NCBI RefSeq assembly: GCF_030531065.1
Contig: NZ_JAUNOQ010000010.1
Coordinates: 1-64,000 of the forward strand
Length of the DNA: 64,000 nt
Direction: 5' to 3'
From: Phascolarctobacterium sp.
GTDB taxonomy: Bacteria; Bacillota; Negativicutes; Acidaminococcales; Acidaminococcaceae
Shown here: in pieces, positions 29,128 to 49,981 of the stretch
How positions within the stretch are numbered: the stretch's first letter is position 1
How the letters are laid out: every line of letters begins with the position of its first letter
Translations under genes and position numbers: made by a program
The notes under the pieces: generated by a model
The model's input: the letters and a program-made list of their open reading frames with translations, nothing else
Told to the model about the DNA's origin: nothing
The model's database searches: none

Positions 29128-29198
29128 AGCGTTGCGGCGCTTAACGCTGGGACGCGTATCAAATACCGGCGAGGTGCATCCCGCCGGTTTTGCGGTAT
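29128..29198 (+). other. Structured 5' leader of the S55 gene
   Basis: The leader folds into AGCGTT/AACGCT (29128-29148) and a 7-bp GC-rich stem ACCGGCG/CGCCGGT (29165-29188) followed by TTTTGC. ATACCG (29163-29168) could instead pair with CGGTAT (29193-29198) just before the ribosome site. This looks like attenuation or translation control, but no known riboswitch fits. Confidence 0.4.
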
Positions 29199-29210
29199 AT
29201 AGGAGTTTAT

Positions 29211-30872
29211 ATGAAGATTTTTGTGATAGCCTTACTGCTGTGCTGCCAGATGCTGGCGGCAGCGGCTGCCAATGTTCCCCTGATGCCCGTGCGCGATTTG
29301 CGGCCGGGAATGCAGGGCGTGGGCAAAACCGTTATCAGCGGCGATACTATTGAAGATTTTAACGTGGAAATTTTGGGCGTCAGCGGCAGCGAAGCCGCAG
29401 GCTACAGTATTTTTGCGCGCCTTTATGGCGACTTAATTGAAAAGACCGGCGGCGTAGCTCAGGGGATGAGCGGCAGCCCCGTGTATGTTGACGGGCGTTT
29501 AGTAGGCGCGGTGGCTTTTGGCCGCACCTTTAACGACCCTCATTATTGTTTTTTGACGCCTATCGGCAGTATGCTGCCTTTGCTGGATAAGCCGCGTCCG
29601 CTGCCTGCGAGCTGGCTGCCTGCGGGTACGTCGCTTTTAGCGGGCGGCTTTACGGATTACGGTCTGGCATATTTGCAGGAAAAGCTTAAACCCTTGGGGA
29701 TGGACGCTGTTGGCAGCGGCGGTACGAGTGCCGTTGCTTCGGGAGCTTTGCAGCCGGGCAGCGCGGTGGGGGCTTCGCTTATGCAGGGCGATTTGACCCT
29801 TGGCGCTATGGGAACCGTTACCTGGACGGACGACTCCGGACGGGTGCTGGCTTTCGGGCATCCCTTTATGCAGCGGGGCGACAGCAATTTCTTTATGAAC
29901 AAGGTTTGGGTGCTGGGCGTAGTGCCTAATATGCAGAGCAGCTATAAGGTGGGTAATATGGGCGAGGCTGTGGGCAGCTTTACCCAGGACCGCGCCAGCG
30001 GTATTGGCGGTAAGCAGGGAGCGCAGCCCAAAACGATACCCTTATTCGTTACGGTCAACGACAGCAGCCGCGGCCAGGGGACCAGCGTTCGCGTGCGGCT
30101 GGTGGAGGATGAAATGCTGGTGCCCACCATTGTGGACGCCGCCGTTATCAATACGCTGAGCAAGGCTGTGGACCGCAACGGCGGCGGTACGGCTAAGCTG
30201 CATTTCAGCATTACAGGCGTGGACAGTAAGAAGCAGATGTTGCGCATCGACAGGGAAAACATGTTTTATTCTAGCGATTCGCTGCTAAAAAATGTGAATG
30301 TGGAGCTGACGGAAGCGGTCACTATTTTAATGCAGAATAAATTTGAGCCGGTAAATATTTACGGCATTACCGTGGAAGCCGAGGTCAGCGACCAGGTGCA
30401 GGTGGCCGAAATCCAGAGCGTGAGGGCTGCCAATAAAAACGTAAAGCCCGGCGATAAAGCTGCTGTTGAGGTGGTAATGAAGCCTTACCGCGGCGCAGAA
30501 TTTACCAAAACGGTATATTTTAAGGTGCCCAAGGATCATCCGGGCGGCCGTTTAGCGCTGAATGTGCGCGGCGGCAGCAGCATGGCCTGGGTTATGAACC
30601 TTCTGCGCAAACAGCAGGAGGAGGGCGTGCCCGCGGCGCAGCAGAAGAAGGAAAAGCGCCGTACCTTAGGCGATTTTGTCAAGAGCGTCAATAACGCCGA
30701 TAAAAATAACGAGCTGATTATCGACGTCGCCACCGGCCAGATGAACCCCGAAATGATGCAGAACGACGCGGGGCTGGCCGGGCTGTTGCAGGGATCGCCC
30801 TTTAAGCAGAAATATCCCTTTGATTTTATCATTGACGGCGAAGAGGAGATTGTTTTAGAGGTAAGTAAATAA
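29211..30872 (+). CDS. SpoIVB-like S55 peptidase-domain protein
   Basis: A 553-residue exported protein with a signal peptide to about residue 20 (MLAAAAA). Residues 25-125 contain GVAQGMSGSPVYVDGRLVGA, the serine motif of S55 (SpoIVB) peptidases, with Ser87 as likely nucleophile. RVLAFGHPFMQRGD with His217 follows later, the reverse of the sporulation SpoIVB order. The C-terminal half is a long beta-rich region plus a charged helical segment. ATG 29211 follows TAGGAG and gives a clean signal peptide; in-frame 29190 does not. No sporulation gene is nearby, so an envelope role is more likely. Confidence 0.75.
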   Translation: MKIFVIALLLCCQMLAAAAANVPLMPVRDLRPGMQGVGKTVISGDTIEDFNVEILGVSGSEAAGYSIFARLYGDLIEKTGGVAQGMSGSPVYVDGRLVGAVAFGRTFNDPHYCFLTPIGSMLPLLDKPRPLPASWLPAGTSLLAGGFTDYGLAYLQEKLKPLGMDAVGSGGTSAVASGALQPGSAVGASLMQGDLTLGAMGTVTWTDDSGRVLAFGHPFMQRGDSNFFMNKVWVLGVVPNMQSSYKVGNMGEAVGSFTQDRASGIGGKQGAQPKTIPLFVTVNDSSRGQGTSVRVRLVEDEMLVPTIVDAAVINTLSKAVDRNGGGTAKLHFSITGVDSKKQMLRIDRENMFYSSDSLLKNVNVELTEAVTILMQNKFEPVNIYGITVEAEVSDQVQVAEIQSVRAANKNVKPGDKAAVEVVMKPYRGAEFTKTVYFKVPKDHPGGRLALNVRGGSSMAWVMNLLRKQQEEGVPAAQQKKEKRRTLGDFVKSVNNADKNNELIIDVATGQMNPEMMQNDAGLAGLLQGSPFKQKYPFDFIIDGEEEIVLEVSK

Positions 30873-35546: not shown

Positions 35547-35578
35547 AAAGATTTTGATAATAACGGCTGGTGGGGCAG

Positions 35579-38500
35579 ATGAAAAAGTATTTTAGATTCA
35601 TAGGTTTTTTAATAGTGCTGCTCAGCGCAGGTTATATTTTTCTGGTGCATACGGTGATGCCCTCCTATTTGCGGCAGCTGGTGCCGCAGGCCGAGACTAT
35701 GGCCGACGATTATATCAACGGCAGCGTATCCATCGGCGAGCTGACATGGAACGGCGGCTTGAGCGCAGAGATTGATAATGTGGTGATAAGGGACGCTAAC
35801 GGCGGCACGGTAGCCGAGCTGCCGCGCACTATCGTGCATGTGCGTCCGTGGCTGGCGCTGGATAAGGGAGCGCGGGCCGTCAGCAAAATAGAGCTGATGC
35901 GGCCGAAGGCTTATCTGGTGATGAATGATAGCGAGCAATGGAATATGCAGCACTTGCTCAAGCCTTCTGATTCGGAGGAAACGCCTTTCTATGGCTTATT
36001 GGAAATTACCGACGGCAGCCTGCAGGTGGCGACGCCTGAGGGGCAATGGGATTTTGGCGTGGACGGCACGCTGAACGGCGGCGCTAATCCTAAATTTGGC
36101 GTGGATATGCAGCTGACCAGCGGTGCGGACAGGTTGGCTGTCAGCGGTTTGATGACTGCCAAGGGCGAAGGCCGTTTGCAAGTGAAGGGCGATAAGCTGG
36201 CGTTGGCGGCTTATGGCGCTTTGGCGAAACGCTACGCCGGTTTGGACAATTTGCAGGGCGGGCTGGGCAAGTTAGCCGTTTTGTACGTCAACGAAAACGG
36301 CGGGCAGAGATTTTCCGGCGAGGTCGCTTTAGCTGGCCTGCAGGCCGAAGTATCGGCGGCGAACGAAAAACATAAGGTAGCGCTGAACGGTTTGCTGCGC
36401 GCCAGCGATAATGTGGTGTCGGTCAATGGCCTTGACGTGGGCGTGGACGGACAGCAGCTGCTCCTGGAGGGCGAGGCTGACCTGAGCGATATCGAAGCGC
36501 CTCAGGGCGAGGGCGTAGTGAGGGCTGAAAAATTGGCCTATGGCGGCTATACCGTGGCTAAGCTGCGTCTGCCCTTCCGCGCCGATAAAGAGAATATTAT
36601 TTTAGACGGCTTCCAGACGGAATATGGCGGCGGCAGCATAAAGGCTAACGGCGCCTACAGCATTAAGGAGCAGGCGCTGACAGCCGACGTTCAGCTGCAA
36701 AATATTACTCATCAAATACCTGACAGGCCTGCGGACGACGTTCACGTTAACGCTAAACTAGCGGTGCTGGCGAAAAATTTGCAGGATAAAGTGCAGTTGC
36801 ATGCGGCGGCGGATACGCTGGATTTGCGCTGGCGCAGTCTGGCAATCAATAAAATGGCGCTGGACGGCGCGCTGAACGAAGCAGGGCTGACAATAGACCA
36901 TTTCAGCGCTTTTGCCGGCAATAACGGTAGTCTGGCGGTCAGCGGCAGCGTAGCTAAGGATGGCACGCTGGAGCTAAAAGGGCGTATGGCGGACTTCCCT
37001 GTAAATCCCTTGCTGGATATCGCGGCGGGGCAGGAGGCCAGCGGCTTGTGCTCCACGGGCTTTGCCATCGGCGGCAAGCTGACGGCTCCGGAATTTTCCG
37101 GCATGGTGCAGCTGACGCAGGCCGAATTTTTGAAGCAGAAGATTGACGAGGCTCACGGCTTTATCAGCTTGAAGGATAATGTGCTGACGATTAAAAATCT
37201 GGTAGCCAATATGGAGCAGGGCAAGCATTTGCTGGACGGCAGCATAGATTTGCGAGGCGAGGAGCCTGCCTTCGAGCTGTCCCTGGAAACCCAGGGCGTG
37301 CGTATCGAACCCATTATGCAGCTTTTGGCTCCTGACGCTTCGGTAACGGGCAATTTGGATAATATTATGCAGCTCAGCGGCACGGTCAGCCATCCGTCGG
37401 TGTACGGCGAGGTACACGCTACGGACGGCAGCGCGGCCAGTCAGCTGTTTAACAGCGTATCGGGGCGCTATATTTATGAGAACGGCAGGCTGGAGTTGCA
37501 CAATTTCCTCGTTCAAGCCTTCCTGGCCAGCATTAAGCTGGACGGTGTAATGACGGCGGATCAGCGTCTGGATTTCAATATGGACGCCAAGAATGTGGAT
37601 TTGGCGCATCTGCCCATTAAAGACGAAACTGTGGATTTAGACGGTTTGCTGGACGCCAAAGGGCATTTGGGCGGCATGCTGAGCAGTCCTACGTTTGAGG
37701 GCGATATCGCCAGCGAAAAAATTTATATTAACGGCGAGGCGCTGTCCGAGCTTCAGGGTACGCTGGACAGCAACGCTAAAGAAAAAAATCTTTTTCAGGT
37801 ATCGTTTAAGCAGCCGTATAAGGACGACCCGCTTAACTATGGCATTTACAGCGCCGATATCAATATCGATACCGTGCAGCGCTTTGTACAGGGCAAGGTG
37901 CTGATGGCTTGGGGCGATATTGGCGGTTTGCTGCGTATGGCGCGGCAGGATTACGATATTAACGGGCAAATGCAGGGCGAGCTGAGCTTTAATCCGCAGG
38001 GCAAGGGCAGCGGCACCAGCATCGCCGTTAATGCTGACGACGTTAAAATTCACGAGCTGAATTATGCCCATATGAACTTTAACGGGCATTTGCAAAATGG
38101 TATCGTAACCTTTGATAATGTTAAGCTGCAGGAGCAGCAGAATGTGACCGACCGCGGGGTGATTGTAGCCGACGGACGCATAGACTTGCGCAGGAAAGGC
38201 ATGGATATGTCGTTGTCCTCAGTTAAGGCTAACCCGGCGATTGTGACGGCGGTCATGAAAGATCCGCCGGAAATTAAGGGCGAAATGGATATGACGGTAA
38301 AGCTGGGCGGCACGATCGACGAGCCTCAGGGAACAGGCTCTCTGGAAATAGTCAACGGCTCGATAGCCGGAGTAAGTATAGACCGTTTGACGGCCATGCT
38401 GTCGCTGAAGGATGATAATATCAATTTACAGCAATTTTCCGCCGTCAAGGATGTCTACGGCGTTAAGGCCGAGGGCGATATTCCGTTGGATTTGTTCCGC

Positions 38501-39868
38501 TCGCGGGATCAGCGCCGCAATCCGCATGCGCAGATGAATATTATTGCGGATTTAAACGAGGCGCGTATGGGAATTTTGCCGGCCATGACCCAAATGGTGG
38601 AATGGGGCGTGGGCGATACCCAGGGACAGGTGCGGTTGGCCGGTACTCTGGAGGAGCCCTTGCTCTTTGGCTCTTTGAAAATTACCGAAGGCGCGATGAA
38701 GCTGAAATATATAGATACGGTGCTGGAAAATATCAATCTGGATGTAGATTTTAACGGCAATACGGTGCTGCTGCGCGACCTTTCCACTAAATTGGGTAAG
38801 GGTACGCTGTCTGCCGAGGGCAGCTACGCGCTGAATACGTCCATAGATACCGGCTATAGCCTGCATATTATGGCTAAGGATGCGGAAATTGCCTCCCAGA
38901 TATTTACCGGGCGCATTAACAGCGACGTGACTATCGAGCCGCAAAAATACCGCGACTTTAGTAAGCCGCGCAGCAATAACGCGCCGCCCCCATTGGCTTA
39001 TCGTCCTTTGGTTAAGGGCAGCGTGCGTTTGGACGACGTGCTGGTAAATATGCCGACTATTCCGGAGCTGGGCGAAGGAGAAAGCAATATCGGCCTTGAT
39101 ATGCGCGTGGATTTAGGACGTAAAATTCATTTGTATAATAGCTATTTATACGATATCTGGCTGGGCGGCGGCATTCATATTAAAGGCAGCAGCAACTATC
39201 CGCGTATCGACGGAACGATTCAGGCTGATAAGGGAAGCGTTACTTACCTGCGAACCGACTTTAAGCTGAATAAGGCAAGCCTGAACTGGATTGAGCCGGG
39301 AAGCTTCCTGCCTAACGTCAATTTGGAAAGCACGGCGCGGTTCAGCCGTTATAATATCTTTATGAAGATTAACGGACCCGTGGAAAATATGGATTTGCAG
39401 CTGCAGAGCGACCCGCCCATGGAGCGAAATACCATTATCAGAATGCTGACGCTGCAGCGCGATACGGCGGGCAGTAACGAGGTTACCTCCGAGGATATGA
39501 ATAACCTGATGACCGTGGGCCTGCAAATGACGGTGCTGGGCGACGTGGAAACATTGGTTAAGCAGACTCTGGGATTGGACCAGTTCCGCATTTATACGGG
39601 CAAGGTACGTTCCGGTATCGGCTTTGAAAGCTCTAAAGACCGCAATCAGGAGCTTACGCCGGACGAGCGCAACCAGTACAACGTGTTGGTAAGTAAATAT
39701 TTGAACGATAAATTGATGATAGGCTACACAACCAGCTTTGACGCTCTTGACAGAAGCGTTTTCGGGCAGTACGATATTAGCAGGCATTTCAATATCACGT
39801 ATTCCCGCAGCTACGATATGTCGGATACGGAAGACTGGTATGGCCTGGAATATAAAATCAGCTTTTAA
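35579..39868 (+). CDS. tamB: TamB/YtfN-family translocation and lipid-transfer protein
   Basis: A 1429-residue protein with one N-terminal membrane anchor (about residues 5-22), then a very long beta-rich repeat region of the AsmA/TamB type and a C-terminal TamB (DUF490) domain covering roughly the last 350 residues. It ends in a Phe after KIS. TamB-like proteins span the periplasm as hydrophobic grooves and carry phospholipids, helping OMP assembly with a BamA-family partner; here bamA lies 1.3 kb downstream and no tamA is seen. ATG 35579 is chosen over GTG 35570. Confidence 0.9.
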   Translation: MKKYFRFIGFLIVLLSAGYIFLVHTVMPSYLRQLVPQAETMADDYINGSVSIGELTWNGGLSAEIDNVVIRDANGGTVAELPRTIVHVRPWLALDKGARAVSKIELMRPKAYLVMNDSEQWNMQHLLKPSDSEETPFYGLLEITDGSLQVATPEGQWDFGVDGTLNGGANPKFGVDMQLTSGADRLAVSGLMTAKGEGRLQVKGDKLALAAYGALAKRYAGLDNLQGGLGKLAVLYVNENGGQRFSGEVALAGLQAEVSAANEKHKVALNGLLRASDNVVSVNGLDVGVDGQQLLLEGEADLSDIEAPQGEGVVRAEKLAYGGYTVAKLRLPFRADKENIILDGFQTEYGGGSIKANGAYSIKEQALTADVQLQNITHQIPDRPADDVHVNAKLAVLAKNLQDKVQLHAAADTLDLRWRSLAINKMALDGALNEAGLTIDHFSAFAGNNGSLAVSGSVAKDGTLELKGRMADFPVNPLLDIAAGQEASGLCSTGFAIGGKLTAPEFSGMVQLTQAEFLKQKIDEAHGFISLKDNVLTIKNLVANMEQGKHLLDGSIDLRGEEPAFELSLETQGVRIEPIMQLLAPDASVTGNLDNIMQLSGTVSHPSVYGEVHATDGSAASQLFNSVSGRYIYENGRLELHNFLVQAFLASIKLDGVMTADQRLDFNMDAKNVDLAHLPIKDETVDLDGLLDAKGHLGGMLSSPTFEGDIASEKIYINGEALSELQGTLDSNAKEKNLFQVSFKQPYKDDPLNYGIYSADINIDTVQRFVQGKVLMAWGDIGGLLRMARQDYDINGQMQGELSFNPQGKGSGTSIAVNADDVKIHELNYAHMNFNGHLQNGIVTFDNVKLQEQQNVTDRGVIVADGRIDLRRKGMDMSLSSVKANPAIVTAVMKDPPEIKGEMDMTVKLGGTIDEPQGTGSLEIVNGSIAGVSIDRLTAMLSLKDDNINLQQFSAVKDVYGVKAEGDIPLDLFRSRDQRRNPHAQMNIIADLNEARMGILPAMTQMVEWGVGDTQGQVRLAGTLEEPLLFGSLKITEGAMKLKYIDTVLENINLDVDFNGNTVLLRDLSTKLGKGTLSAEGSYALNTSIDTGYSLHIMAKDAEIASQIFTGRINSDVTIEPQKYRDFSKPRSNNAPPPLAYRPLVKGSVRLDDVLVNMPTIPELGEGESNIGLDMRVDLGRKIHLYNSYLYDIWLGGGIHIKGSSNYPRIDGTIQADKGSVTYLRTDFKLNKASLNWIEPGSFLPNVNLESTARFSRYNIFMKINGPVENMDLQLQSDPPMERNTIIRMLTLQRDTAGSNEVTSEDMNNLMTVGLQMTVLGDVETLVKQTLGLDQFRIYTGKVRSGIGFESSKDRNQELTPDERNQYNVLVSKYLNDKLMIGYTTSFDALDRSVFGQYDISRHFNITYSRSYDMSDTEDWYGLEYKISF

Positions 39869-39904: not shown

Positions 39905-40540
39905 ATGCTGCAAAGCTATTTGGAGGAGCTGCGTAAAACGCCGCTGCTGGAGCCGCAGGAGGAACGCGCTTTGTGGGAGCGTTCAGCGGCGGGCGATTTT
40001 GCGGCGCACCAGCGTTTGATGACGGCTTATCAGCCGTTGGTCTTTAAGCTGGCCGTCGGCTTTAAGCTGCCGGAGGCAGAAACGCTGGAGCTTATTCAGG
40101 AAGGTATGGTCGGGCTGCTGGAGGCGGCGGAAAATTACGATTATAAGCGCCAGGTAGCCTTCAGCCTGTTTGCTACCTACCGCATTAAAGGCAGCATGGT
40201 GGATTATCTGCGCCGCAGCTCGGATAAGGGGCTTCTGTATCTGGACAGCGATATTGGTCAGGGCTTTACTTTAAGCGACGCGCTGCCGTCTGCGCTGGCT
40301 TCGCCTACGGAGCTGGCCGAGCGCAAGCTGCTGCAGGAAAAAGTGGCTCAGGCTATGGACCGCCTGCCTGCCAAGGAGCAGCAGGTGCTGCAGGGCATGT
40401 ATCTGGAGGACAGGCCCGCGCAGGCTGTGGCCGAGGCTATCGACGTCAGCCTGGGGCATGTGTACCGTCTGCAGAAGCAGGGGGTGCGCCGTATCCGCGG
40501 TATGCTGTCGCGCTTTATGCACGATTTTAATAAGGAATAA
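39905..40540 (+). CDS. Sigma-70 family sigma factor in the OM locus
   Basis: A 211-residue sigma factor without region 1.1. A short 1.2-like N-terminus (MLQSYLEELRKTPLLEPQEE) is followed by region 2 (about 35-105; ELIQEGMVGLLEAAENYD and FSLFATYRIKGSMVDYLRR) and region 4 (about 150-200, with helix-turn-helix DVSLGHVYRLQKQ). No full region 3 is obvious. It is closest in layout to group 3 factors of the FliA/SigB/WhiG kind. It is 36 nt after tamB and 160 nt before a bitopic membrane protein gene. A role in envelope gene control is suggested by position only. Confidence 0.82.
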   Translation: MLQSYLEELRKTPLLEPQEERALWERSAAGDFAAHQRLMTAYQPLVFKLAVGFKLPEAETLELIQEGMVGLLEAAENYDYKRQVAFSLFATYRIKGSMVDYLRRSSDKGLLYLDSDIGQGFTLSDALPSALASPTELAERKLLQEKVAQAMDRLPAKEQQVLQGMYLEDRPAQAVAEAIDVSLGHVYRLQKQGVRRIRGMLSRFMHDFNKE

Positions 40541-40701
40541 AGCGACATTAGTATGTTTATTGCGTAAATAGAAGCATTTCAGCGAAAATTAACTCAAAGC
40601 TGGTAAAATCTGCTTAAACGGTCTGTTAAAATTCCTGATAATTATCGACTGTTATAAGCATAATCGTTTATTTTTCGATTCCGGCAGAAAGGGGTTTTAG
40701 C

Positions 40702-41187
40702 ATGGAGCGGTCGGGCCGTTCGCTTTTTCGGCGTATCCGCAGCGTAAGAAGCAGTTTGGATAACGCGGAGCAAAGCTTTTTAGACAATAAGGATATTCGC
40801 GGCGAGCTTGACCTGATGCTGGCGGAAGCAGAGCTAAAAAACCTGCGCCGGAAAAAGGACGTTCCCTGGAGCTGGAACCGCCACCTTTTGGCGGCCTGCG
40901 CCGCCGGGCTTTTGGTTCTGGCTGGCTTCGGCGGTTGGTATTGCGCCAAGGACCATTATTTGCAGAGGCGGGCGGCCGCCGCTCCGGCAGGAGCGCACGT
41001 GTCGACGCCGGTAACTGCGCCTGTGCGGCAGGCCGTTCCCGTTAAAACAGCGGTCGCGAAGCAAACTGTTCAGCAGGATATCACCGCTGCCGGCGAAGAA
41101 CCGGAAAAGCAACAGGTTACTATATCTAAAGCCGATATGCGCAAGCTTGTGCAGTCGGCGCGAGTGGAGTTAAGCAACTCTAAATGA
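40702..41187 (+). CDS. Bitopic membrane protein of unknown function
   Basis: A 161-residue protein that I do not recognise. A basic cytoplasmic N-terminus (about 1-55, helical, LDNAEQSFLDNKDIRGEL) leads to one transmembrane helix (about 58-77) and a Pro/Ala/Thr-rich periplasmic part of about 80 residues. This single-pass topology is that of anti-sigma factors, but no zinc-binding or RsgI/RseA motif is visible. It lies between the sigma gene and bamA, 23 nt before the bamA start, so a Bam accessory function is equally possible. AAAGGGG precedes ATG 40702. Confidence 0.7.
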   Translation: MERSGRSLFRRIRSVRSSLDNAEQSFLDNKDIRGELDLMLAEAELKNLRRKKDVPWSWNRHLLAACAAGLLVLAGFGGWYCAKDHYLQRRAAAAPAGAHVSTPVTAPVRQAVPVKTAVAKQTVQQDITAAGEEPEKQQVTISKADMRKLVQSARVELSNSK

Positions 41188-41210
41188 AGCGCAAGGAGGA
41201 TAATCCATTG

Positions 41211-43319
41211 ATGAAAAGAACCCTACGGCAGCCTTTGAGGGTGGGCTTGGCAGCAATGCTGCTGGGCTTGCCGGTTTATGCTGATGATATACAAATCGCG
41301 GAGGCTGCGACTCCGCCAGCAGTCTTGGAGTCTGCAGCAGAAACAGACTCCGTGGAGGCGGCATATACGGCGGCTCGTGAGAACGCCGCCCAGACTGCCG
41401 CTGCAGCCGACGCTCAGAATAGTGCAGCGCCGTCCGACGCCGCTGCGGCAGCTCCCGCAGACGAGCCTGAAACTGTCGCCGTGCCAACGGAACCTGGCGT
41501 ACAAAAGGCACAGGAGCCTGAGAAGCAAGCAGAGCCTGCAGCCGAAGCTGTGCAGGAGCCTGCGGCAGAAGCAGCTGCCGTTCAGGAGCAGAAGCAAGAA
41601 GAAAACCGCTTGGAGCCGTATTTGGGTAAAACCATTACCAAGCAAATAATCGAAGGCAACGCTACCGTTCCCGCAGAGGACGTTTTAGCTGCGTTAAAGA
41701 CTAAGCCCGGCATGGAATTTACGGAAGCCGGACTGACGGAGGACTTGAGCGCCATTTACGATATGGGCTGGTTCTATGATTTGCATCCCGAATTTAAGGC
41801 TGTGCCGGAGGGCGTGCAGGTTATTTACCATGTGCTGGAAAATCCCGTGTATAAGTCCGTCAAGGTGCAGGGCAATACGGTTATCGACAGCAAAAGGGTG
41901 GACGCCTGCTTTGATTTGGAGCAGGGCAAGGTCGCCAATTTGAAGCAAATCAATAAAAGCGTGCAGAAGCTGGAGGAGGAATACCGTTCCAACGGCTATA
42001 TTCTGGCGCGCGTAACGGACGTGCATATGGAGCAGGATGGCACGCTGAACGTGACCGTCAACGAGGGCATCGTCGAGGACTTCAAGGTAAAGGGTAATGT
42101 AAAGTGTAAGGATTACGTTATTACCCGTGAGATGAAGCTGAAAAAAGGCAAGCCCTTTAACGCCAAGGACGCTCGCCGCAGTATGCAGCGCGTGTACAAC
42201 CTGGGCTATTTTGAAGATGTAAATATCAAGCTGAATCCCGGCCGCGAGCCTAATTCCGTCGAGGTAGAAATTTCCGTAGTGGAAATGAACACCGGTACTT
42301 TCGGTATCGGCGCGGGCTACAGTAACGCCGACGGCTTTGTCGGCATGGTTTCCATCGGCGATAAGAATTTCCGCGGCACTGGCGACAGGGTCAATATCCG
42401 TTGGGAATTTGGCGGCGAGGATAACAAGAACTATGATTTCAGCTATACCCGTCCTTGGATTGACGATAAGGAAACCAGCGCGACGCTGAATTTGTACGAT
42501 ATCACTAACGAATACGCCGACTATAATATCGACGGCGACGAAATCGCGCGTTACGATAAAAAGCGCCGCGGCCAGGAGCTGACCTTCAGCCGCAAGACGG
42601 ATAATGAATTCATAAGCAATTATATTACCTTGAAGAACCGTGAGGATATCTACAAGGGCGAAGCCGACGGCTATGAAGGCGATACCGACCAATATTATGA
42701 AAAGCAGTTTACCAACAGCGGCAAGTATGAAAGCTGGATGCCCAGCACACCGGAAGAACGCCGTAAGGAAAACTTCGGTACGACGCGCAGTATTACGCTG
42801 GGGCGCGTCTTCGATTCCCGCGATAATATTTACGATCCCCACGAGGGCAAGCGCATCGGCTACAGCTTAGAGTGGGCCGGCGGCCTGGGCGGCGATTTTG
42901 ACTTTACTAAATTTACCGCCGATTACCGTTATTACTATCGTGCGGGCGGCGAAAGCGTTTGGGCTCTGAACTTGGGCGCAGGCTATGCCGACGGCGATAT
43001 GCCGCTGAGCCAGCGCTTCTCCATGGGCGGCAGCGATACCCTGCGCGGCTACGAGGACGACCAGTTCCGCGGCAACAGCATGGTTAAGGCTACGCTGGAG
43101 TACCGCTTCCCCATTGTTAAGAAGGTACAGGGCGTACTCTTTACCGATAACGGTTACGCTTGGGATAAACGCCACGAGGATGAATTTGATTTCGGTCTGA
43201 TTAAGAACAGCTACGGCGTGGGCCTGCGCATCAATTCTCCTTTGGGCCCCGTTAAACTGGATTATGGCTACGGTGAGGACGGCGGCAAGTTCCACTTTAG
43301 CTTTGGCGGGCAGTTCTAA
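41211..43319 (+). CDS. bamA: Outer-membrane protein assembly factor BamA
   Basis: The central Omp85 insertase (702 residues). A signal peptide ends near residue 23 (LPVYADD). An unusual Ala/Glu/Pro/Gln-rich linker of about 110 residues follows, then three POTRA domains (about 140-360) and a 16-strand barrel ending FSFGGQF. The SMGGSDTLRGYEDDQFRG motif (VRGF-like, loop 6) is near residue 605. ATG 41211 is chosen because AAGGAGG sits 11 nt upstream; an in-frame ATG 41184 would mask the signal peptide. Three POTRAs rather than five is usual in this class. Confidence 0.93.
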   Translation: MKRTLRQPLRVGLAAMLLGLPVYADDIQIAEAATPPAVLESAAETDSVEAAYTAARENAAQTAAAADAQNSAAPSDAAAAAPADEPETVAVPTEPGVQKAQEPEKQAEPAAEAVQEPAAEAAAVQEQKQEENRLEPYLGKTITKQIIEGNATVPAEDVLAALKTKPGMEFTEAGLTEDLSAIYDMGWFYDLHPEFKAVPEGVQVIYHVLENPVYKSVKVQGNTVIDSKRVDACFDLEQGKVANLKQINKSVQKLEEEYRSNGYILARVTDVHMEQDGTLNVTVNEGIVEDFKVKGNVKCKDYVITREMKLKKGKPFNAKDARRSMQRVYNLGYFEDVNIKLNPGREPNSVEVEISVVEMNTGTFGIGAGYSNADGFVGMVSIGDKNFRGTGDRVNIRWEFGGEDNKNYDFSYTRPWIDDKETSATLNLYDITNEYADYNIDGDEIARYDKKRRGQELTFSRKTDNEFISNYITLKNREDIYKGEADGYEGDTDQYYEKQFTNSGKYESWMPSTPEERRKENFGTTRSITLGRVFDSRDNIYDPHEGKRIGYSLEWAGGLGGDFDFTKFTADYRYYYRAGGESVWALNLGAGYADGDMPLSQRFSMGGSDTLRGYEDDQFRGNSMVKATLEYRFPIVKKVQGVLFTDNGYAWDKRHEDEFDFGLIKNSYGVGLRINSPLGPVKLDYGYGEDGGKFHFSFGGQF

Positions 43320-43330
43320 GCTGTGGGGCG

Positions 43331-44608
43331 ATGGCTGTAATGAAGCTGAATAAAATTTTAATCCTTGCTGCAATGACATGCTTGCCATTGCAGCAAGCTT
43401 TTTCTGCGCAAATTGAAAATGTCAGCGTGCAGGTGGTGGACGTCAACGGCGGCACCAGCCAGATTTTGCTGGATAAAATGAGCGGCAGTATGCAGGTAGT
43501 CGCCGATCAGCTTTTTTTGGATAAGGACGCCGATAAGGTGGCCGCCGCCGGCGAGGATTATAAACGCCTGCTGACGGAAATAGGCGACCGCGTTTTTACA
43601 GGCTACGAGCTGAGTGGGGTGCGGCTGCAGCCTGGCGCGCAAACTGATATTGTGCTTTATGCCAGACCGTGGAACAGGATTATCAGCCAGCCGCTGGTGG
43701 ATTTGCAGTTTTCCGGCGTAGAGCCGCAGACGGCGGAGCTGCTGCAGCAGCGGATACCGTCGCTCAAGCGGGAGCTGGAGCAGGCCATCAGCGGCGCGTC
43801 CGAGGACGCCGGGGATTGGGCCGGCGGCGTGCTGCGTAAAATGGCGCGGCAGCAGGTGGAAGAACGGCTGCCGGAATTTAAGGCGGCTGTGGACGTGGTG
43901 CAGGATAAGCAAAGCACCGTAGTGCAGGTGGTCATTTATCCCGTAGGGCAGCTGGTGAGCAATATTAAATACGAGCTGCGTAGCGAAGCCATTCCCAATA
44001 TTCTGCTTATGGAGCTGAAGTATAAGTACTTAGCCGAATGCGATAAGCTGCGCGGCTTGCCGGTGGCTTATGTGCAGGCGCATAAGGAGGAGCTGGAGCA
44101 AATACTGATGGATAAACTGCTGGCGGAGCAGGCTGTGCAGAATTTTCGTTTACAGCCGTCTGTGCGTTTGACGCCGGGCGCTAATCTGGGCGTCAATATT
44201 ATGATCAATTCGGACGATTATAAGCTTTGGTTCGAGGGCTACGGCGATGTCGGCCGCGATAAGGATAACCTTTCCGGCAAAGCGCATATAGGTAAGTTTA
44301 TTTCGCCGCAGGACGAGGCTTTCGGCGAAGCGGAGGTTATTCTGGATGACGTGCAGTGGCGCTTCGGCGCAGGCTATGCCCGTTATTGGGGCAAAAGCGT
44401 GTGGAGCTATATGCGGCGAATGCCCGTAGGCGATAACGATTACCGGCTGGAATATAATTTAAGTCCCAAATGGCGCTTGCGGGCCGAGCATTTTTCAGGC
44501 GACGACCGCAATGAATTCGGCGTGCGGTACCGCATTCACGAATTTTTGAGCGCCGAGTACGTCTATGGCGGCGATGAATTTTATTTACGAATTATAGGAA
44601 ATCTGTAG
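43331..44608 (+). CDS. Predicted outer-membrane protein of unknown family
   Basis: A 425-residue exported protein (signal peptide to about residue 24, QQAFSAQ) that I do not recognise. Residues 25-290 alternate strands and helices in a way that could be two or more POTRA-like repeats. The last 130 residues look like amphipathic beta strands (LWFEGYGDVGRD, WRFGAGYARYWG, YRLEYNLSPKWRL) ending in IIGNL, as in a small barrel. It starts 11 nt after bamA and is surely in the same operon. A Bam-associated role is the natural hypothesis. The start could be ATG 43340. Confidence 0.7.
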   Translation: MAVMKLNKILILAAMTCLPLQQAFSAQIENVSVQVVDVNGGTSQILLDKMSGSMQVVADQLFLDKDADKVAAAGEDYKRLLTEIGDRVFTGYELSGVRLQPGAQTDIVLYARPWNRIISQPLVDLQFSGVEPQTAELLQQRIPSLKRELEQAISGASEDAGDWAGGVLRKMARQQVEERLPEFKAAVDVVQDKQSTVVQVVIYPVGQLVSNIKYELRSEAIPNILLMELKYKYLAECDKLRGLPVAYVQAHKEELEQILMDKLLAEQAVQNFRLQPSVRLTPGANLGVNIMINSDDYKLWFEGYGDVGRDKDNLSGKAHIGKFISPQDEAFGEAEVILDDVQWRFGAGYARYWGKSVWSYMRRMPVGDNDYRLEYNLSPKWRLRAEHFSGDDRNEFGVRYRIHEFLSAEYVYGGDEFYLRIIGNL

Positions 44609-44614
44609 CAATTC

Positions 44615-44643
44615 TTGAAAGAATGCTTGCAGACTGCTATAAT
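44615..44643 (+). promoter_or_regulatory. SigA-type promoter of the first ompH
   Basis: TTGAAA (44615-44620), a 17-nt spacer and TATAAT (44638-44643). Confidence 0.75.
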
Positions 44644-46588: not shown

Positions 46589-46599
46589 AACGCACCCTG

Positions 46600-46626
46600 A
46601 GCGGGCGGGTTGGCCCGTCCGCTTTT
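46600..46626 (+). terminator. Intrinsic terminator after the third ompH
   Basis: A 10-bp GC-rich stem (46600-46609 with 46614-46623, one G-T pair), TTGG loop and TTTT. Confidence 0.8.
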
Positions 46627-49537: not shown

Positions 49538-49981
49538 ATGACCGTTCTGGATATTAACGAAATAAAGAAGATTCTACCCCATCGTTATCCCATGCTGCTG
49601 GTAGACCGTATTCTGGAAATTGAACCGATGAAGCGCGCTGTAGGCATCAAAAATATTACGGCTAACGAAATGCAGTTTTTAGGTCATTTTCCCAATGAGC
49701 CCATTATGCCCGGCGTGCTGCTGATTGAAGCTATGGCGCAGGTCGGCGGCGTAGCTATGCTGTATCCCGAAGAAAACCGCGGCAAAATCGCCGTTTTTGC
49801 TAAAATCGACAACGTGCGCTTCCGCAAGCAGGTAGTGCCGGGGGATCAGGTGGTAACGACTGCCGAAGTAACGAAAATTATGCGCGGCAATATGGGCATT
49901 ATCCATTGCGAGGGCAAGGTGGACGGCAAGGTAGCCTGCGAATGCGACTGCACCTTTGCCATTATGGACCCGAAAAATTAA
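49538..49981 (+). CDS. fabZ: 3-hydroxyacyl-ACP dehydratase
   Basis: A 147-residue hot-dog-fold dehydratase. Catalytic His in [12 protein letters not shown] and Glu in [12 protein letters not shown]. It competes with LpxA/LpxD for 3-hydroxyacyl-ACP, which explains its usual place in lpx clusters. It starts 3 nt after lpxC. Confidence 0.95.

Follow-up and report, generated by a model that had tools for sequence, protein, structure and literature searches.

The window, that is, the whole stretch of 64,000 nt that was analysed, carries on its plus strand an outer-membrane cluster in the order S55 peptidase, mlaE, mlaF, mlaD, tolC-like gene, tamB, sigma, mem and bamA. These are followed on the same strand by a gene for a 425-aa protein, three skp-like genes, lpxD, a lipid A acyltransferase gene, lpxC, fabZ (49538-49981, named from its sequence), lpxA and lpxI. 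The sigma gene (39905-40540) encodes a sigma-70-family factor of 211 aa and follows the end of tamB (35570-39868; PF04357, 2.5e-33) after a gap of only 36 nt, for which reason both genes are probably co-transcribed. A second gap of 161 nt (40541-40701), bearing a conserved promoter-like element, leads to mem (40702-41187), which encodes a bitopic membrane protein of 161 aa defined here by a structure model and a class-wide profile. Both sigma and mem are intact in the window. The bamA ORF (41184-43319; Omp85 and POTRA domains by Pfam) overlaps the mem stop codon, with its likely start at 41211 or 41214, downstream of an AAGGAGG ribosome-binding site. Over 131 loci, the median distance from mem to the next start is 22 nt, and mem and bamA probably share one transcript. 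The coordinates and the Pfam assignments of both neighbours confirm the placement of sigma between tamB and bamA by the initial annotation. The host genome (2.37 Mb) displays only three matches to sigma-70 region 2 in a genome scan, and the nearest named relatives in the mem search belong to Phascolarctobacterium.

The 425-aa protein encoded between bamA and skp (43331-44608) shows a weak match to the TamB C-terminus and a barrel-like C-terminal end, and proteins of similar size also come after bamA in several loci outside the Negativicutes; it is possibly a further assembly factor.

Domain composition of the sigma factor and of mem

Membership of the sigma-70 family is supported by PF04542 (53.9 bits) and PF04545 (41.2 bits), both over their curated cut-offs, and by TIGR02937 (92.3 bits, cut-off 42.9). 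Pfam matches to Sigma70_r2 (1.6e-14), r4 (1.2e-10) and r1.2 (2.4e-5) were all above cut-off, and no match to region 3 was obtained in the same scan. Consistent with this, the AlphaFold model (pLDDT 85.5) comprises two helical parts, 2-107 and 134-210, joined by a linker modelled at low confidence (about 108-133). The sigma-70 identity of the "group 3-like" factor first described at this position therefore holds by its regions 2 and 4, but the group 3 assignment does not in the absence of region 3. FliA/WhiG-type TIGR02479 is indeed the best-scoring specific subfamily, and solved FliA structures are among the best matches of the sequence search; its score of 86.9 bits, however, does not reach the curated cut-off (189.6), and group 3 (FliA, WhiG, SigB) was rejected on both grounds. 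The fold search with the model returned general sigma factors only. An ECF (group 4) identity was also rejected, since region 3 is missing as required for that group, yet region 1.2 is present (PF00140, 24.7 bits, cut-off 22). SigH (Spo0H)-type sigmas of Bacillota likewise lack region 3 and join regions 2 and 4 by a short linker, and the factor gives a weak match to PRK08295 (49 bits), but the family cut-off, 212, is far higher, and the presence of region 1.2 and another gene neighbourhood set it apart. Within the genus, dN of sigma is about 0.09 for a dS of 1.5-2.0; given this low ratio and the conservation of the locus across the class and beyond, the sigma/mem arrangement is more than a chance observation.

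In the model of mem, helices 3-28 and 33-51 precede a membrane helix (56-92), a disordered linker rich in Ala, Pro and Gln and a last helix at 143-159. The segment of about residues 3-51 is predicted to form a cytoplasmic helical hairpin, and this cytoplasmic portion is the best conserved of the protein; the invariant residues are A22, E35, L36, L38, L40, A41, A43 and L157. The single membrane pass and helical cytoplasmic tail originally proposed for mem are thus supported, whereas the proposed periplasmic domain is replaced by a disordered linker and one conserved C-terminal helix. Neither Pfam nor NCBIfam gave a family above cut-off and the solved-structure search found no significant match, in agreement with the earlier statement that mem has no recognised anti-sigma motif. 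Two specific candidates were considered and rejected. A zinc-binding anti-sigma factor (ZAS/ASD, HxxxCxxC) is matched in neither Pfam nor NCBIfam, and residues 1-51 of the window protein contain no His or Cys; for a FecR-type regulator, the FecR Pfam match is absent and the neighbour is an Omp85 protein and not a TonB-dependent partner.

Joint presence and joint loss of sigma and mem

The distribution of both genes was determined in 380 Negativicutes genomes, with mem counted at E < 1e-10 and nine additional weak mem matches set aside as chance. Sigma orthologues are present in 271 genomes and mem in 274: both genes occur in 270 genomes and neither in 105, sigma alone being found in one and mem alone in four (Fisher p 7e-88, kinship ignored). 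Most of these five single-gene genomes look cut or broken. Among the four with mem only, sigma is cut at a contig end in two and its ORF is shortened in one; G183, with mem but no sigma, is represented by a short contig. In G122, sigma is kept and bamA has been relocated. The pair is thus co-conserved across the class, and the independent phyletic distribution that the initial annotation had set against a sigma/anti-sigma switch is not observed, the two genes behaving as one unit. Split or shortened sigma ORFs next to an intact mem were noted in L049 (G032) and L304 (G151), reflecting either real decay or assembly error.

Within the relatives set, loci that carry sigma and extend far enough show the order tamB-sigma-mem-bamA, mem of L076 being recovered as an ORF. 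In the pair-less genomes, tamB mostly adjoins bamA directly with neither gene in between, bamA having moved in two of them. This co-excision leaving tamB against bamA was seen in a first set of genomes lacking the pair and in 14 more, including the Veillonella-like g101. The BamA tree requires 8 changes of pair state, at least 7 of which are forced by the starred branches. Sigma and mem therefore form a real unit that has been lost jointly and in place in several lineages.

These losses bear on what mem may be. As a structural BAM/TAM accessory, it would be an inner-membrane tether reaching BamA, and sigma would only express mem-bamA with no signalling between the two; its adjacency to bamA in nearly all loci and, in the model, a tether with a conserved C-terminal helix suited to a contact spanning the periplasm are in line with such a role. 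On the other hand, loss of sigma is accompanied by loss of mem but not of BamA and TamB, a pattern more easily reconciled with a sigma regulator than with a BAM component, and the most conserved portion of mem is in the cytoplasm, where BamA is not. The accessory role is consequently considered quite unlikely.

The pair is also found outside the class. In a phylum sample of 299 genomes, of which 76 have Omp85 and 223 do not, mem is present in 19 of the former and in none of the latter. Outside Negativicutes, the mem profile matches 11 genomes of the phylum, each with the gene order tamB-sigma-mem-bamA. The description "particular to diderm Firmicutes" is thus valid, within this sample, in the sense of Omp85-bearing Bacillota only, but not in the sense of Negativicutes only. 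The association is patchy: 55 of the 66 Omp85-positive genomes outside the class are without the pair, which is therefore not essential to outer-membrane assembly, and no sigma orthologue was found in the 55 Omp85-positive genomes without mem. A single branch supported at 99% divides the sigma sequences of the class from those outside it, as vertical descent predicts. In one locus (L400, G526), sigma and mem are both kept although an insertion of about 3 kb, with an HD-domain-like gene and hairpin-like repeats, separates them.

A promoter-like element ahead of mem-bamA

A two-box motif, nnAaAAt-N15-GAYTATATA (AAAAT-N15-GAYTATATA), was found in the sigma-mem gaps, and unseeded starts recovered the same motif. 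In 60 relatedness-reduced gaps, its log-likelihood ratio is 221 compared to 42-57 in 12 shuffled sets, and in 53 of 77 loci no other site on either strand scores better. When the fixed model was applied to 58 further gaps, some of them near-copies of training loci, the motif was the best of the region in 49; as a portion of this class had supplied the training loci, this represents consistency and not proof of use. The median score is 10.2 in gaps with the pair and 2.5 in 14 gaps of genomes that lost it (p 3e-7), the latter often being shorter, which lowers the maximum score. The window copy (40626-40655) is weak, with a score of 4.7 and rank 9 in its own 12.6-kb locus, behind eight better matches. 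It consists of a putative -35 box TTAAAAT (40626-40632; consensus nnAaAAt) and a putative -10 box GACTGTTAT (40647-40655; consensus GAYTATATA), 55 nt ahead of the mem start. The -10 box is degenerate in the genus of the window and near-perfect in many other lineages, and in some lineages the gap is too short for a promoter. In L036, L034, L078 and other Sporomusaceae-like gaps, the spacer between the boxes is conserved as CTGGCCTCTTCCCA, beyond what a promoter needs, and is possibly an operator.

The position of this conserved element directly before mem-bamA makes envelope assembly the predicted target and sustains the envelope link suggested at first. Alternatively, sigma and mem could be unrelated passengers of a conserved outer-membrane cluster, with an ordinary housekeeping promoter in the gap. 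The entire cluster is indeed conserved in Negativicutes (PMC5007114, PMC10665443), but the pair has been lost jointly and repeatedly with the remaining cluster kept, is complete in the 11 distant genomes, neither gene turning up without the other, and is accompanied by an element that misfits the sigma-A consensus TTGACA/TATAAT and is mostly gone where the pair is lost. Such a passenger status is therefore highly improbable.

No wider regulon emerged from the genome scans, which were restricted to strict patterns. With two mismatches allowed, 20 genomes yielded overall no excess over the reversed-pattern control, and an exact search with the strict pattern returned 23 matches in 380 genomes, 12 of them being the mem gap; one strict match (G045:2279045) is flanked by small ORFs only. 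The gap promoter is not taken to drive the whole skp-lpx cluster, since a sigma-70-type promoter-like site with 11/12 matches and a TG lies at 44615-44643, directly before the first skp-like gene, and a terminator-like hairpin is found at 46599-46624, ahead of lpxD.

Proposed feedback on outer-membrane assembly

The reading favoured here, with some confidence, is that a private sigma factor and a membrane-bound regulator placed before bamA form a homeostat for the assembly of outer-membrane proteins, tuning mem-bamA by feedback. Sigma would be produced from the upstream tamB transcript and, with RNA polymerase, would recognise AAAAT-N15-GAYTATATA in the sigma-mem gap and transcribe mem and bamA, possibly together with the gene that follows. 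The cytoplasmic hairpin of mem would bind sigma and hold it back at the inner membrane, while the conserved helix at the end of the long flexible periplasmic tether would sense how assembly at the outer membrane is proceeding, through BamA, TamB or unfolded substrate. Once the restraint is released, with or without proteolysis, mem and bamA would rise together, which would make the response self-limiting.

By analogy with the usual arrangement beside a sigma factor, mem is probably an anti-sigma factor. Covariation between sigma and mem (169 pairs, effective 94) gives a top-25 mean of 0.626 compared to 0.43-0.50 for clade shuffles, although shuffling also breaks relatedness and the top pair is within the shuffled range. 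Co-loss, a shared locus and a conserved cytoplasmic hairpin would equally fit mem as a positive partner, either co-activator or membrane anchor, needed for sigma activity. From general knowledge, however, bitopic proteins encoded next to a sigma gene are usually anti-sigma factors, and a positive loop without a brake on an outer-membrane assembly gene would be unusual; a positive role is thus regarded as unlikely.

In its logic, the sigma-mem system is nearest to FecI-FecR-FecA of Escherichia coli and in its target to RpoE-RseA, being a member of neither family. By general knowledge and PMC9249621, the Fec system likewise has a locally acting sigma whose targets appear to be very few, among them the gene of an outer-membrane protein encoded in the same cluster, and, in FecR, a bitopic inner-membrane regulator with an N-terminal cytoplasmic domain. 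In contrast, FecI is an ECF factor without the region 1.2 present here, FecR has known domains and mem none that were found, and FecA is a TonB-dependent receptor where BamA is an Omp85 assembly factor. The targets of E. coli RpoE include bam, skp and lpx genes (PMC4651636), and E. coli rseP lies directly upstream of bamA-skp-lpxD-fabZ-lpxA-lpxB, the slot occupied here by the sigma-mem pair. The RpoE regulon, however, is large and its gene elsewhere, rseP encodes a protease and not a sigma, and mem has no RseA match. More tentatively, the pair may be an ancestral outer-membrane homeostat of diderm Bacillota predating the split of Negativicutes from the other classes, in which a tether that spans the periplasm and bears the C-terminal helix would sample BamA or TamB directly and the private sigma would feed back on bamA, independently of the RpoE/RseA of Proteobacteria.

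Control of outer-membrane building in diderm Bacillota appears undescribed. An open-literature search found no published sigma factor in this tamB-bamA cluster, and the two papers dealing with the cluster, of 2016 (PMC5007114) and 2023 (PMC10665443), mention none in their text. In Veillonella parvula, the usual model, tamB and bamA carry consecutive gene numbers (PMC5491611), in keeping with a loss of the pair, and this may be why the pair has escaped notice. If the proposed homeostat is real, a single promoter would make control of outer-membrane assembly directly testable, and the pair would be a second case of sigma-based control, located just where E. coli has rseP, ahead of bamA-skp-lpx.

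The SpoIVB-type S55 peptidase heading the outer-membrane cluster (29190-30872; PF05580, 2.3e-13) is a candidate site-1-like protease, and RseP is encoded in the host genome; a role of either in the sigma-mem system is no more than conceivable. A SpoIVB-domain protein, Vpar_0521, is also present in V. parvula, even though tamB and bamA adjoin there (PMC5491611).
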